From Planctomycetota bacterium (lineage in GTDB: Bacteria > Planctomycetota > Phycisphaerae > Sedimentisphaerales > Anaerobacaceae), in contig JADFMM010000017.1 in the NCBI GenBank assembly GCA_022563885.1, positions 1 through 44,697 on the forward strand: DNA of 44,697 bases, given 5' to 3'. Shown in pieces: positions 31,603 through 37,766 of the stretch. Each line of letters opens with the position of its first letter. The stretch's first letter is position 1. The translations under genes and the position numbers were made by a program. The notes beneath the pieces were generated by a model. The model was not told where the DNA came from. It saw nothing but the letters and a program-made list of their open reading frames with translations, and searched no databases.

Positions 31603-31801
31603 CAGCATACCTCCTTCATGTGTGATATCCGTTATCGTGTATCGTGTATTTTCAATAAGCGCCGCTAAGGACCTGGCCAAATCGCTATTATATCGTTTTA
31701 CTGCCACGCTTGGTCAGAAAACTCCGTCGTCGGCCCGAGAGCGAGCGTTTTTTCACCTGGCAAAGACGGCGACCTGTCCGCCATAGCCTTGGCGAAGTCA
31801 G

Positions 31802-32659
31802 ATGAACACGAATAGCAAATCAAAACTCCCTCTCAAATGGCACGGGGGCAAATTCTATCTGGCGGACTGGATTATCGATCACATGCCCAAGCACCTGCAC
31901 TATGTCGAGCTCTATGGCGGCGGATTAGCCGTACTGCTGGCTAAGAGTCCCAATGATCCTCGCCACCAATGGGGTGAGAAAGCCCAAGAGCGAGGTATTA
32001 GTGAGGTCGTCAACGATCTCAATCACGAGCTAATGAACTTCTGGCGAGTACTTCAGGATGAAGAGTCATTTGGGCGGTTCCAGCGGATAATCGAGGCGAC
32101 GCCATTCTCAAAGCCCCAGTGGATCGAAGAGGAGACACGCATGGTGCCACGCCACGCTCTGGACGTGGAGGCCGCTGTAGCATTCTTCATACGGTGCAGA
32201 CAGTCAAGAACTGGCGGATTCAAGTCATTTGCCACACTTTCTCAGAACCGGACTAGGCGAGGAATGAATGAGCAGGTCTCTGCATGACTGAATTGCGTTG
32301 ACGGTCTTGCCGACGTACATAAGCGACTCAAACGTGTCGTAGTGCTGTGCGAGGACGCTCTGGAGGTCATTAAGCGGGAGGACGAGGAGAAGACACTCTT
32401 CTACCTTGATCCACCTTACGTGCCCGGCACACGAGCGGTCACGGATGCCTATCAACACGAAATGGACGTGCCGCAGCACGCCGCCTTGTTTAGAGGGGCT
32501 CAAGCAGTGCCGGGGACGCGTCATGCTTTCCGGGTATCCACATAAACTCTACGACCAGACCCTGGCCGGGTGGACTCGTTACGAATTGAAGATTGACAAC
32601 AAGGTAAGCGGTGCCAGTAAGAAGCGGGAAATGATGAGTCGCTTTGGTGCAACTTCTAA
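31802..32659 (+). pseudogene. D12-class DNA adenine methylase, inactivated
   Basis: The N-terminal part (KLPLKWHGGK, VELYGGGLAVLL, EVVNDLNHELMNFW) and the catalytic DPPY (32408-32419, context TLFYLDPPYVPGTR) identify an N6-adenine methylase of the Dam/D12 class. Three lesions are visible: TGA at 32285-32287 where the family has a Trp (SA*LNCVDGL); a +1 shift in the GGGG run at 32495-32498, after which the frame continues GLKQCRGRVMLSGYP; and a -1 shift near 32637, after which it ends SLWCNF-TAA (32657-32659). Such orphan methylases usually travel on phage or mobile DNA. Full length would be about 285 residues. Confidence 0.85.
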
Positions 32660-32852
32660 CGATTGCAGCAAATGGCATAGGGAGGGAGCGGAGCCACCTT
32701 CCGGCCTCCGCAGGGTACGCCACGGGCGACTTAAGGCAGGTTGACAGGTCATGCCGCTGGCGATATGAGAGAAGGCAGAGTCGTCTTCAAGCTTCCAGAA
32801 GCCGTTGGAATCAAACAAGTTCGAATTAATGAAATAGGGCAGGTGAGATCCG

Positions 32853-33134
32853 ATGGAAACGCAGATAGAAGAAGAGAGCATCGCTGATGATACCGGAGAG
32901 GGGACCCCTGTTTGCATCATGTGCTTTCAGCGGGTAGATCCACTAGTTCACTACTGCGCGAATTGCGGTGAGGCCACAGCCAGCTGGACTCCGTACTTGC
33001 CATTTATCAATATACGGTGGCAAGTTAGCTTTTGGGGTCGGGCTTGGAAGCAAGTGTGGTCACGTGATATATCGGTTCCGGGGCGGTTGCTTAGATTGAT
33101 CATGGTAATATGGTTGCCCTTTACGATTCATTAG
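32853..33134 (+). CDS. Small zinc-ribbon protein with C-terminal hydrophobic segment
   Basis: 93 residues; AGGTGAG lies just upstream of the ATG. Two Cys pairs, CIMC (about 21-24) and CANC (about 36-39), form a zinc ribbon. A W-rich segment (ASWTPYLPFINIRWQVSFWG) and the hydrophobic RLLRLIMVIWLPF follow. The pattern, DPLVHYCANCGEA followed by TPYLPFINIR, resembles small planctomycete membrane zinc-ribbon proteins. The hydrophobic segment is cut short by TAG; the same frame beyond it (QSLPFLWISRIGF) is still hydrophobic, so it may be prematurely stopped. Role unknown. Confidence 0.65.
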   Translation: METQIEEESIADDTGEGTPVCIMCFQRVDPLVHYCANCGEATASWTPYLPFINIRWQVSFWGRAWKQVWSRDISVPGRLLRLIMVIWLPFTIH

Positions 33135-33297
33135 CAGTCTTTGCCCTTTTTGTGGATTAGTAGGATTGGTTTTTAGGGATTCCTGTAGGGTCTGGGAGAG
33201 TTGATTCAAAGATATGGGAAGGCATTGACAGAGATGATACGTCCTGCCCTTCTCCCCACCCCCCACTGGCAGCGCAACAGCACCGCTACATGGACAG

Positions 33298-33681
33298 GGC
33301 CGGTCCCTGGCCTACAGTCTTCACGATGGAGAACAATGGGATATCTGGATTTACGACATAGAGCGGGATGTTCCCACCAAGTTGACTTTCGACCCAGCCG
33401 ATGACGACTTCCCCGTATGGAGCCCGAGTGGCGAGAGCGTTGTCTTTGGTTCCAAACGTGACGGATTTGTGAATCTGTACTGGAAGCGCTCCGACGGCAG
33501 TGGTGAGACCCAGCGTTTGCCGGAGAGTCCAAACTGGCAAATCCCGCAGTCCTGGCGCCCGGACGGCCGCCATCTCGCCACCTTTGAAGGGACAGCTAAG
33601 GATGGGGCGAACTTGCGAATTCTAAAGTTGAGAGGGGACGATCTCACGGGCTGGACGGCCGGGGATCTATCGCTAGTATAA
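33298..33681 (+). pseudogene. WD40-like / TolB-type propeller fragment
   Basis: The frame gives GRSLAYSLHDGEQWDIWIYD, then TKLTFDPADDDFPVWSPSGE, VVFGSKRDGFVNLYW and WRPDGRHLATFEG: two to three PD40 (TolB-like) blades, of the kind attached to planctomycete Ser/Thr kinases. No start codon with ribosome-binding site fits the beginning, and the protein stops after about 127 codons with TAA. An internal TTG (33382) would give 99 residues. It is most likely a remnant of a larger propeller gene rather than a free protein. Confidence 0.65.
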
Positions 33682-33821
33682 TCGTGCTACGAATTTATCG
33701 ATCCGTGGTACCCGGAATCCGATCGGATGAGTGATCGTATGGCGCGTCATGGATTGGCCTTTCTCCACAGGAAGTGATTCTGAGTGGCTCCTGCCTGTCT
33801 GCCTACGGGCCGACTTGTTCC

Positions 33822-33885
33822 AGGAACCGCCCGGTGCGGACCCGCACGCCGGGTGGCGTGGGGGCTAATCCCCCCGGCTACGCGA
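33822..33885 (+). ncRNA. Group II intron 3'-end remnant (domain V-VI like), copy 1
   Basis: ACCGCCCGG-TGCG-GACC-CGCA-CG-CCGGGTGGC folds as a 34-nt hairpin with a 2-nt bulge and a GNNN tetraloop, the signature of intron domain V. It is followed by GTGGGGG-CTAAT-CCCCCC, then CGGCTACGCGACTAT, resembling domain VI and the intron end. Similar CGGACCCGCACGCCGGGTGG sequences are known downstream of ltrA-type maturases. No maturase gene is present here, so this is a remnant if the reading is right. Confidence 0.5.
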
Positions 33886-33933
33886 CTATGCCTTTTTTTT
33901 GGCCAGATAAATTCGAAATAAAACGCCGCAGCA

Positions 33934-34188
33934 TTATCGTTTTTTTGTCGCGAAATATACCGACAGAAAAGAGACTAATGAACCCCAAACTACAGCTCCT
34001 ACTATCGCCGTGCCGATAGCTCGCTCCATGTTACCCCCATACTGCTGTGCTTGGCCCCAATGCAGAATTCCCAAAGGAGCACCTACTGCAATGGCCGCAC
34101 CGGAAAGAGCCCCTGCAGAACCGACTATAGTTCTACTAGAACACTCGGAATCTGAAAGCGTGTTGGCACTTTTGCTCGTATCCGCCAT
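33934..34188 (-). CDS. Small two-helix membrane protein
   Basis: 84 residues. Start supported by AAGGAG 9 bases before the ATG. Polar Ser-rich N-terminus, then two hydrophobic helices: about 21-46 (TIVGSAGALSGAAIAVGAPL) and about 57-79 (AIGTAIVGAVVWGSLVSFLS), ending in a basic KKR. No family recognised. It is the last of four minus-strand genes separated by repeat-containing gaps, a layout compatible with cassette genes. Confidence 0.6.
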   Translation of the reverse strand: MADTSKSANTLSDSECSSRTIVGSAGALSGAAIAVGAPLGILHWGQAQQYGGNMERAIGTAIVGAVVWGSLVSFLSVYFATKKR

Positions 34189-34258
34189 ACTTGAGTTCTC
34201 CTTTGGTAGCTTCCTTAAAAACCAATGTGCCCTTGGGGGCGAGATCTTGATTTACATT

Positions 34259-34445
34259 TATTGTATGCCATTAGACGAACGCCATGACGGAATATGACAG
34301 ACAACTGCTAATCAGAACAAGTTATTGTATAGTTTCTCCACAACACCCAAAAGAGACAGCCTCCTCTGGGACATACCAGCCCCTTCTTCACGCCTGTTTT
34401 AAAGAGCCTATTCGTTCACATCCAGTCTAGGGCACTATGCTAACA
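34259..34445 (-). repeat. AACGAATA-type intergenic repeat (possible attC-like), copy 1
   Basis: Read on the minus strand after the protease stop: TGCCCTAGACTGGATGTG, then AACGAATAGGCTC, later GGGTGTTGTGG and CTATACAATAACTTG, and finally GTCTAATGGCATACAATAAA. The block GAACGAATAG...GGGTGTT...ATACAATAACTTG aligns with 35779-35877. TGCCCTAGAC near one end is roughly inverted relative to GTCTAATGGCA near the other. It fills the gap between two unrelated genes. Confidence 0.4.
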
Positions 34446-34453
34446 AGTAATCA

Positions 34454-35377
34454 CTAATCACGTTCTGACCCCAAGAACTCCTTCTCTTGGTTCTGGAGCG
34501 GTGACCAGAAGACAAAGTCTTCGGGATCGTGATTCTTTGCTTGTTCAAGCACTTCTCGAATCCTCGAAACCGGCTCCACAATAGAATAATTCAAGGCCTT
34601 ATCTGTGCCGATAACCAGGCCAAGTAGCTGGAATTTTGGATCATGAAGTGAAGTTTGATTCGTTATCGGGCTGCCGCTGTTACCTCCAAATACTTCCGCA
34701 TCTATCAAGACGCACCTTTCTTCAACGAATTTGAGTGTCACTCCATTGTCCAGCCTCAGGAATTTCTTGCCCGTTCGCATTCCAATTATTCCTGATCTTA
34801 CAAAGGGCCGCTGCCGCAGCATTTCGAATCCGATGTGCATAGGAAAGCCGAAGACCAGGATTGCTCTTGGCGGAGAGGGATCTGCCATTGGCAGTTGAGT
34901 CTCGTCCTCATTCTCCGAACCTGGAAGATCATACCGAAAGAATGTGACTCCCCGGTCCTGAATCCACGGTATTCGCATCGCTGCTACATCAACAGGATGA
35001 GTATCCTCGTCACCCTCGTTTGAGTGAAAAACCCATCGAGACCTGGGGAGTCGGAGAAGAACGATTTCTCTTTCCCCAGTCTCTTCGTTGAGCCACTCAA
35101 CTCTGGCGCTAAGGTCCCCCGGCCAATCAGCTATGTGTCGGGCAGACACGACGAACAACGTGTTTTCCCTTGAAACAAAGAAGGCGGTGCCATGCGAAAC
35201 GAGTTTCTTTTCGAATTCTCCCGGAGATCCTTTTTTGGGAGCGCGCACAGTCCTTTCCAAGCGAATCACGGCCCGACTGATTTGCGAGTAGAGATCTTCC
35301 TCTTCCTTTGCCTCAGCGGGACCGGGGACAAGGCAAAGGCCCAAGAGAAGTGTTAGGAGCAGTTTGTTCATGTTCAT
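34454..35377 (-). CDS. Secreted trypsin-like serine protease
   Basis: 307 residues; signal peptide 1-23 (LLLTLLLGLCLVPGPAEA). A trypsin-like fold is indicated by GTAFFVSRENTLFVVSARHI with catalytic His81, HPVDVAAM with Asp130, and GGNSGSP with Ser234, so the full triad is present. There is no PDZ domain, unlike DegP/HtrA. GAGAGG precedes the first ATG; an ATG two codons later is an alternative. The protein would act in the periplasm or outside the cell. It sits among small unrelated minus-strand genes, which suggests it was acquired as an independent unit. Substrate unknown. Confidence 0.85.
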   Translation of the reverse strand: MNMNKLLLTLLLGLCLVPGPAEAKEEEDLYSQISRAVIRLERTVRAPKKGSPGEFEKKLVSHGTAFFVSRENTLFVVSARHIADWPGDLSARVEWLNEETGEREIVLLRLPRSRWVFHSNEGDEDTHPVDVAAMRIPWIQDRGVTFFRYDLPGSENEDETQLPMADPSPPRAILVFGFPMHIGFEMLRQRPFVRSGIIGMRTGKKFLRLDNGVTLKFVEERCVLIDAEVFGGNSGSPITNQTSLHDPKFQLLGLVIGTDKALNYSIVEPVSRIREVLEQAKNHDPEDFVFWSPLQNQEKEFLGSERD

Positions 35378-35447
35378 TTCAGCCTCTCACCCCGTTGGCC
35401 AGAGCAACTTCCAAACAGCTATCTCGGCATTGGCTCAGCTCAATCAT

Positions 35448-35511
35448 GAGTTGCAGTCGGACGCCTTCGGCGATCCGGTGCGAACTCTTATTCGTTGAAC
35501 TCTTATTCGTT
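35448..35511 (-). repeat. attC-like hairpin with tandem 15-bp repeat
   Basis: On the minus strand two perfect tandem copies of AACGAATAAGAGTTC (35511-35482) lead into a 40-nt hairpin (35487-35448): GAGTT-CGCACCGGA-T-CGCC, loop GAA, then GGCG-T-CCGACTG-CAACTC. The arms pair except for a few extrahelical bases on one side, as in integron attC sites. The stop codon of the zinc-ribbon gene lies in the first 15-mer, preceded by CTAAC, which matches the core of attC R'' sites. A clear matching GTTRRRY core on the other side was not found. Confidence 0.4.
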
Positions 35512-35763
35512 AGTTGCTGTTAAATCGTCATCAAACCCTACACAGTTGTTCCGTTGAAACGTGTTCAGTTTGGTCTTGTCGGCAAAATTCCAAATCAAGT
35601 CGCAATCGCGACAAGCAAGGCCCTGCTTGCCTAGTTTAATACCGCCCGTAATCGTCGGAGCGAGAAACCGCAGGTTGTCCGGCCGAAACACGGGCACTCC
35701 TCTTTGACGGACTAGTCTCCCGGTTACAATGTGCCGACTGCCGCACTTCGGACAAGATTGCAT
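35503..35763 (-). CDS. Small zinc-ribbon protein
   Basis: 86 residues. CPKCGS (Cys4, Cys7) and CRDCDLIW (about Cys51, Cys54) form a typical four-Cys zinc ribbon separated by a basic, hydrophobic loop (RPDNLRFLAPTITGG). The ribosome-binding site is weak (GGTAGGCC region), so the start is less certain. The final codons and stop lie inside the AACGAATAAGAG repeat, as expected if the gene is a cassette ending at its recombination site. Function unknown; such proteins often bind nucleic acid or act as small adaptors. Confidence 0.6.
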   Translation of the reverse strand: MQSCPKCGSRHIVTGRLVRQRGVPVFRPDNLRFLAPTITGGIKLGKQGLACRDCDLIWNFADKTKLNTFQRNNCVGFDDDLTATNE

Positions 35764-35778
35764 AAAACTGGCCTACCA

Positions 35779-35877
35779 AGTTATTGTATGGCTTCCTGAT
35801 AACACCCAAATAGGGATAGCCCTTTCTCAAGAGCTATTCGTTCTCATCCTGGCCAAGGGGCTACGGTAACGATCAAG
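35779..35877 (-). repeat. AACGAATA-type intergenic repeat (possible attC-like), copy 2
   Basis: Minus-strand reading: CGTTACCGTAGCCCCTTGGC, then CAGGATGAGAACGAATAGCTC, TTGAGAAAGGGCTATCC, TTTGGGTGTTATCAGG, CATACAATAACTTGG. It aligns with 34319-34445 (shared GGATG.GAACGAATAG, TTTGGGTGTT, ATACAATAACTTG). It lies immediately upstream of the zinc-ribbon gene. Confidence 0.4.
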
Positions 35878-35907
35878 CAGCCACCAAGCTCTAGCACGTG
35901 GGCTTCT

Positions 35908-35965
35908 CATTCGGGCCCGCATGCTAGGTGGTGTCGGGGGCTAAAGACCCCGGCTAGCCGCCTGG
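35908..35965 (+). ncRNA. Group II intron 3'-end remnant, copy 2
   Basis: GGGCCCGCATGCTAGGTGG then TGTCGGGGGCTAAAGACCCCGGCTAGCCG aligns with 33835-33885 (GGACCCGCACGCCGGGTGG, GTGGGGGCTAATCCCCCCGGCTACGCG). The left half of the domain V stem is degraded, but the GGGGGCT-AAAG-ACCCC hairpin is intact. The flanking minus-strand 74-residue frame ends inside it, as if the insertion had truncated that gene. Confidence 0.45.
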
Positions 35966-36165
35966 GAGTGACCACCTGATAGGGCTTTTAACCATATGTT
36001 TTGACGAAAGTGCGGAACAAACACGTCGCGTGGATGTCGCAACTCATACCCATGTTCAGGGTCAAGTATAACATATGCAAACGAGCGGATACGGTACTTA
36101 TCGCAAAGAATTAATGATTTTTCCAAGATACGATGCACATCAGCTTCTCTTTTCAATTCATTCAA
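35941..36165 (-). CDS. Hypothetical protein, probably truncated at its C-terminus
   Basis: 74 residues; not recognised. The body reads NELKREADVHRILEKSLILC and IRSFAYVILDPEHGYELRHP, looking like a real alpha/beta fragment. The last ~12 residues (SGGHSQAASRGL) are encoded by the intron-like remnant on the opposite strand, so the original C-terminus is gone. No strong ribosome-binding site was seen. Could be a pseudogene. Confidence 0.4.
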   Translation of the reverse strand: MNELKREADVHRILEKSLILCDKYRIRSFAYVILDPEHGYELRHPRDVFVPHFRQNIWLKALSGGHSQAASRGL

Positions 36166-36496
36166 CAGGAAATCTTCATGAAAATTATTCTTACCCCGAG
36201 ATCTCGCACTAGCACGCGGTTGCGACGGGAACAGACGAAGTCATTGGGCAGGTAGGCTTTGTCACGGACTCTAAGAGTATGCCTCAGAGCATAACCCGGT
36301 ATGCTCCAGAATATGCCTTACAGCAGTCTTTACAAGACAACGGTTGGCAACAATCGAAAAACCCAGACAACCAAAAGGGAACTGTAACTTGTGAAAATGA
36401 AAGGGTTTGTCACTCACTGGCAGCAGAAGGCACGAAAGCGGGTGGGGAGACTCAAAATCAGATCGCCAGCTTCGGTGACTGACGTGCACCAGACCC
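36166..36496. other. Gap without recognisable gene
   Basis: About 330 bp between two minus-strand genes. A 67-codon plus-strand frame (36279-36482) lacks a ribosome-binding site and any similarity that I recognise. Nothing else seen. Confidence 0.5.
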
Positions 36497-37210: not shown

Positions 37211-37323
37211 CGTGACGCTCCTGTTCCTCAGTTCGTAGAATTAAGGGCACCTGACAGATCGAAAACGACAAATGATATGATAAATGACCGGGAATCCGAT
37301 TTCAACCCATAAAGGTGAGTATA

Positions 37324-37501
37324 GGAACCGGCAAGAAATAACTTGGACTTTTGGACGCCCAATTGCACCGTATCTTTGGCCGCTTCTCAATCACCAAATC
37401 CTCACTGTAGTCCACTACACCTCCGGTTTGGCTCAATCGGCGCGACCAAATCTACGGCACACTTGAACCCCAAAATGTCCAATTTATTTCTTGCCGATCC
37501 C
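37324..37501 (+). repeat. MITE-like palindromic element, copy 3 (complete)
   Basis: 178 bp with 25-bp terminal inverted repeats, CGGCAAGAAATAA(C/A)TTGGAC at the core (left 37324-37348, right 37477-37501). Inside, the arms continue to pair with mismatches: TTTTGG, CCGTA and CCAAA blocks are matched at equivalent distances from both ends, converging on a central TGTAGT-CC-ACTACA. It contains no plausible gene of its own (a short frame is open in this copy but not conserved in copy 1). It lies in the gap between a prepilin-like gene and the VapBC module. Confidence 0.85.
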
Positions 37502-37766
37502 ATATCACCGGAGACAGCGGTTTAAGAAAGAATATCAGCCCAAATTGTCCAATTCATTGCGTGGTTCTTTAACAATGCTGCCATCGCAGCCAGGATTGTG
37601 CCACGGAAGCCGCTGTTTTCTTGCCGGTCCTTATTAGGGACCTGGGCTACGACCACCCGCATTCCTTGCAAGCCAGGCGTCACCTGATCGACCCATACGA
37701 TGTCAGCGGGAAACCCGGTCGAAGGCTAGCCAAGTTGCTTACGGAGAAAACGTCTCAGTTTCCCTG
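37502..37766. other. Gap with a possible extra element end
   Basis: No gene seen. GCCCAAATTGTCCAATTCATT (37539-37559) resembles the right end of the 178-bp element, and TTTTCTTGCCGGTCC occurs again near 37615-37630, as if a further copy had been broken up. The rest is unrecognised. Confidence 0.4.

Follow-up and report, generated by a model that had tools for sequence, protein, structure and literature searches.

Four small ORFs on the minus strand of a planctomycete contig, all pointing in one direction at 33.9-36.2 kb and separated by gaps of 265, 125 and 177 bp, raise the question of whether they are integron cassettes, and of what the repeats between them are. An integron is a bacterial gene-collecting machine, and attI is its entry site. 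The 44,697-nt stretch analysed here (the window) belongs to a draft genome (G000, a MAG of 6.5 Mb in 470 contigs), which is compared below with a same-genus congener (G001). The first-pass annotation had proposed a cassette array with four co-oriented genes, related sequences in gaps of 125-265 bp, and a hairpin with extrahelical bases in one gap. All of these are present, except that the 74-aa ORF, which has a TTG start and no database or Pfam match, may not be a real gene. The features are collected in Table 1.

Table 1. Features of the array region, in window coordinates
Feature	Position	Strand	Remarks
84-aa protein, two apparent membrane helices	33,934-34,188	minus	probable cassette gene
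attI-type site A	34,313-34,353	minus	crossover G 34,318; R box GTTCTGA
leader module upstream of attI-A	34,401-34,475	minus	overlaps protease 3' end; contains GAACGAATAGG
trypsin-like serine protease, signal peptide, 307 aa	34,454-35,377	minus	probable cassette gene
attC-like site, taken as degenerate	35,438-35,515	minus	R'' GTTCAAC 35,494-35,500; R' ATTGAGC 35,438-35,444; L''/L' hairpin between
possible zinc-ribbon protein, 86 aa	35,503-35,763	minus	probable cassette gene
attI-type site B	35,772-35,812	minus	crossover G 35,777; R box GGTAGGC
leader module upstream of attI-B	35,833-35,892	minus	contains GAACGAATAGC
74-aa ORF, TTG start	35,941-36,165	minus	upstream of attI-B; doubtful gene

The protease has a Trypsin_2 match (E=1.1e-5) slightly short of the curated cut-off, and the 84-aa protein matches no Pfam family above cut-off. 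The zinc-ribbon protein has a relative in one other of 159 members of the order (38% identity). The zinc-ribbon gene starts 14 nt past the attI-B crossover, and the ATG of the 84-aa gene lies 130 nt past that of attI-A. The cassette-like genes had been said to end in the repeats, and two of them do: the zinc-ribbon stop codon falls within the CTAACGAATAA repeat of the attC-like site, and the final protease codons fall within a repeat module that recurs elsewhere. None of the window genes was found as a cassette at another place. The orthologous locus in G001 (C765) lacks 31,755-36,461 and has 488 unrelated bases instead, and an 8-kb DNA search listed none of the four genes among its matches in G001 or G002, so the genes are accessory. 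A precise cassette insertion in the window was considered and rejected, since the missing segment is the whole of 31,755-36,461 and extends beyond the array alone. This 4.7-kb block also includes a broken-looking D12 adenine methyltransferase gene (31,802-32,545).

The two related gap repeats are attI-type sites of the ~466-aa IntI family, not attC. They have a 34-nt stretch in common (82% identity), and the AACGAATA motif occurs in all three gaps, as GAACGAATAG in two and CTAACGAATAAG in the third. A 41-nt attI weight matrix, built only from 19 intI-adjacent sites of other phyla and holding no site from the genus of the window, places site A first (39.4 bits) and site B second (30.4 bits) in the 44.7-kb window, against 5.8 bits for the next-best place and a maximum of 14.8 in 20 shuffles. 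Leave-one-out scores of the 19 foreign sites themselves range from 6.4 to 40.5. A calibrated sequence-only model (R1) gives the same order, with E=9.9e-8 for site A, E=1.1e-4 for site B and 0.89 for the next. The core (e.g. GAAACTATAGAATAACTTG|TT) is found upstream of related integrases in Desulfobacterota, Riflebacteria and Verrucomicrobia, where the sites adjoin intI with no gene between. The R box of site B has its first T altered with respect to the consensus GTTRRRY. A scan for R''/R' pairs with a hairpin found no significant attC beside either site (p about 0.2), and there was no Rfam match. The proposal of an integron cassette array thus holds in that the array appears integron-derived, judging by these sites, by integrases in the genome and by attC-bearing arrays elsewhere; it does not hold for the related gap repeats, which are attI-type.

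Further copies of the genomic box, GGTGTTATCAGGAAACTATACAATAACTTG|TTAGGC, were found in G000 by a search with one gap, several of them close to contig ends. G001 also carries the box, and the pattern is absent at up to three mismatches from 59 other relatives searched. Model R1 finds 22 places in G000 at E<=1, of which 18, spread over 17 contigs, reach E<0.1, and about 16 sites in G001 (E<=1). It finds none in a third congener and mostly few, weak sites in other family members (89 genomes searched). No site above 17.7 bits occurs in 616 kb of other G000 contigs. Where enough downstream sequence exists, attI is mostly followed by a same-strand ORF, usually starting within ~140 nt. The annotation had suggested looking for the same repeat behind other small genes. 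Several of the ~18 genomic places lie ahead of small genes with real attC: canonical attC sites follow attI and a gene at C33, C340 and C372 in G000. In G001 such attC sites follow at C345 and C742. At C340 the order is box, DUF4177-like gene, attC, SDR gene, attC. Contig C143 has two attI sites; of the 30 foreign integrase loci at which a site was found, a single one has two. At G110:C20, G110:C45 (L243, L244), G097:C231 (L091) and G000:C143 (L090), a gene lies between paired attI-type sites spaced 0.7-1.3 kb apart, so that other genera of the family also have such pairs.

The window encodes no integrase (TIGR02249), as had been reported, and most attI copies have no intI trace in the stretches examined. 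The integrases sought elsewhere do exist. G001:C451 (L071/L077) encodes a complete ~466-aa IntI (TIGR02249, 371 bits), with the box between intI and the first gene. In G000, C363 holds the last 64 codons of a 466-aa IntI at the contig edge, 94% identical to that of G001, and N-terminal stubs lie beside attI at C340 (64 aa) and C262 (18 aa). The C340 box is divergent from the truncated protein (MRSVPTNFAKNYSILL...), whose full-length relative is the C451 protein; the first 64 residues of the C340 protein have no Pfam family above cut-off. The only complete integrase in G000, at C443 (TIGR02249, 332 aa, 432 bits), is of another class and has no box beside it. The contigs of this draft MAG are short, and some integrases may be absent from the assembly. 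A further intI remnant adjoins attI at G001:C312. The remnants at G000:C262, G000:C340 and G001:C312 have their first ~17 codons (MRSVPT..AKNYSILLV) in common, beyond which the similarity soon fades in two of the three. In the ~466-aa IntI of G001:C451, residues 1-154 form a part of about 150 residues ahead of the TIGR02249 region.

Differences between congeners that start at G|TT in orthologous loci are indirect signs of past recombination at these attI sites, which IntI would join to attC. G000:C36 and G001:C84 share 97.7% identity along an alignment of 4,985 bp, which stops 5 bp beyond the attI crossover; C36 is known for only 10 bp beyond the divergence point (contig end). C372 and C121 match up to CTTG|TT, behind which their genes differ. 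A DUF1348 gene starting at G|TTATGCC lies behind the complete integrase of the other class at G000 C443, and the same gene is the second gene of an attI-headed array in G001 (C345).

The region is very probably a decayed integron-type array whose gap repeats are attI copies, attI having been copied to many loci in the genus. On the minus strand it would read attI B, zinc-ribbon gene, degenerate attC, protease gene, attI A and 84-aa gene. The direct grounds are the attI-type identity of the repeats, their copy number, their position before genes, the G|TT junctions at orthologous loci, and the integrase genes and fragments. From these we infer integration in trans, the route by which attI spread and the loss of activity in the window. 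According to this model, the attI of the ~466-aa integrase family would have been copied to many chromosomal loci in this planctomycete genus, and these copies would receive cassettes, at the G|TT crossover, through the action in trans of an integrase encoded elsewhere; several copies still bear cassettes with normal attC. That such a decentralised integron is at work, with one integrase serving many scattered attI landing pads, each of which heads a small cassette array, is a tentative proposal to which we give slightly less than an even chance. If true, cassettes would be captured and expressed in trans at many chromosomal loci.

The strongest alternative is that each attI is the remnant of a separate, duplicated complete integron that has since lost its intI, so that any action in trans is over. 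The intI stubs beside attI at C340, C262 and G001:C312 and the degenerate window sites are what it would predict, while the fact that two congeners have different genes at the same attI points to insertion or exchange later than the loss of the local intI; on balance this alternative is rather unlikely. On the origin of the copies it can be reconciled with the model above; the two differ on present activity. For the window itself, none of the three sites keeps a consensus R box (GGT for GTT at site B, ATT for GTT at the attC-like site, and a poor GTTCTGA at site A), so the array is probably a relic and its genes are probably fixed.

The gap between the protease and zinc-ribbon genes holds the hairpin, GAGTTcGCAcCGGAtCGCC-gaa-GGCGTCCGacTGCAACTC, with its extrahelical bases. 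An attC site next to the stop codon had been claimed here; one attC-like site is indeed present, but its crossover G is mutated to A, and no significant attC was found elsewhere in the stretch. Folding of the 63-nt site gives z of about -3.3, and its relaxed attC score is modest (p=0.012 per 140 bp); this score and the lack of an unchanged attC in the window are points against the integron-array reading. The gap aligns at 87.5% identity (112 nt) with C143:2591-2702, which sits behind another small gene in an attI-bearing array, the TAA stop of that gene lying within CTAAC. The presumed R' is ATTGAGC in the window, GTTTAAC in C143 and GTTGAAC in C201, and the second R'' of the window (GTTCAAC) is the perfect complement of the C201 R'. 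Since the relatives in C143 and C201 have an intact GTT at R', the hairpin appears attC-like, and a reading of it with the wrong polarity was dropped. An additional R''-like AACTAAC (35,509-35,515) comes from a 15-bp tandem duplication, and we take the hairpin as a degenerate attC carrying this duplication. The module seems longer than a bare attC, because the similarity to C143 extends ~55 nt beyond the presumed R'. Hairpin-like sequences occur in four of the 19 attI-bearing stretches that were sampled, compared with a single occurrence in the 616 kb of other G000 contigs; a scan of viral contigs for the motif found none. This enrichment, together with the occurrence of the 34-nt box in ~18 places of the genome, shows that the repeats are not due to chance.

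An ordinary CALIN, in which the gap repeats would be attC and the integrase lost or on another contig, would account for the small co-oriented genes, for the one attC-like hairpin beside a stop codon and for the integrases in the genome. It is very unlikely, since it is largely refuted by the match of the gap repeats to sites of other phyla that adjoin intI with no gene between, and no significant attC lies beside them.

Both attI sites are preceded by a leader module. That of attI-A is 85% identical to a repeat common to C376 (two copies), C177, C143 and others, and that of attI-B is 78% identical to the same repeat over 60 nt. The conserved leader (GTAGAGCCTTAGACAGGATGAG) was considered as a mobile attI-bearing cassette, which was rejected because in most copies the similarity continues across the G|TT boundary on the left. 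At C187 and G001:C88 the leader stands without a strong attI box, and many box copies contain a TATAAT-like stretch, as might be expected if the box were a dispersed repeat of intergenic regions or promoters with no role in recombination. This is hardly probable given the conservation of the box alongside intI across phyla, the exchange of genes at G|TT between orthologous loci and the attC sites behind several box copies.

Other repeats were noted in the window. A REP-like palindromic sequence (GGGGGCTAA...CCCCGGCTA) at 33,834-33,887 and 35,900-35,963, in direct orientation, flanks the array. A ~180-bp MITE-like repeat with 55-nt inverted arms lies at 37,323-37,507 and has dozens of copies in G000 and G001 (about 84-97% identity), and a dispersed repeat of ~60 bp at 31,713-31,772 has over 20 copies in G002, a congener.

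Integrons have been described from planctomycetes, and attC models are available for this phylum (PMC8352920). According to IntegronFinder 2.0, an integron typically has a single attI close to its integrase; that program does not detect attI sites outside class 1, which are poorly described (PMC9024848). A bacterium with ~18 attI sites instead of one may collect genes at many chromosomal places; cassette capture and expression would then not be bound to one locus. A cross-phylum attI consensus for the whole integrase family also makes integrase-less arrays findable. No reports of multiple or orphan attI sites were found in the open literature, which is weak evidence of novelty.

The system has the conserved G|TT crossover at attI and the TIGR02249 integrases in common with sedentary chromosomal integrons, as well as canonical attC behind cassette genes, here at other G000 loci. 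Those integrons have one attI, whereas about 18 are present here on 17 contigs, most without an adjacent integrase. CALINs, which are clusters of at least two attC without integrase (PMC9024848), are similar in having cassette-like genes distant from any integrase; here, in contrast, attI-type sites head and punctuate the array and the scans found a single degenerate attC-like site. Rules of the IntegronFinder type require at least two attC, and would probably be silent on this stretch. In class 1 systems, genes between attI and delta-attI sites recombine (PMC12901181), and a gene between two attI-type sites is the feature held in common with the delta-attI cassettes of mobile integrons. Those are resistance cassettes of class 1/2 integrons with attI in place of attC (PMC12901181), whereas the attI copies here are dispersed through a planctomycete genome. 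It is these many dispersed attI-headed arrays that are unusual.
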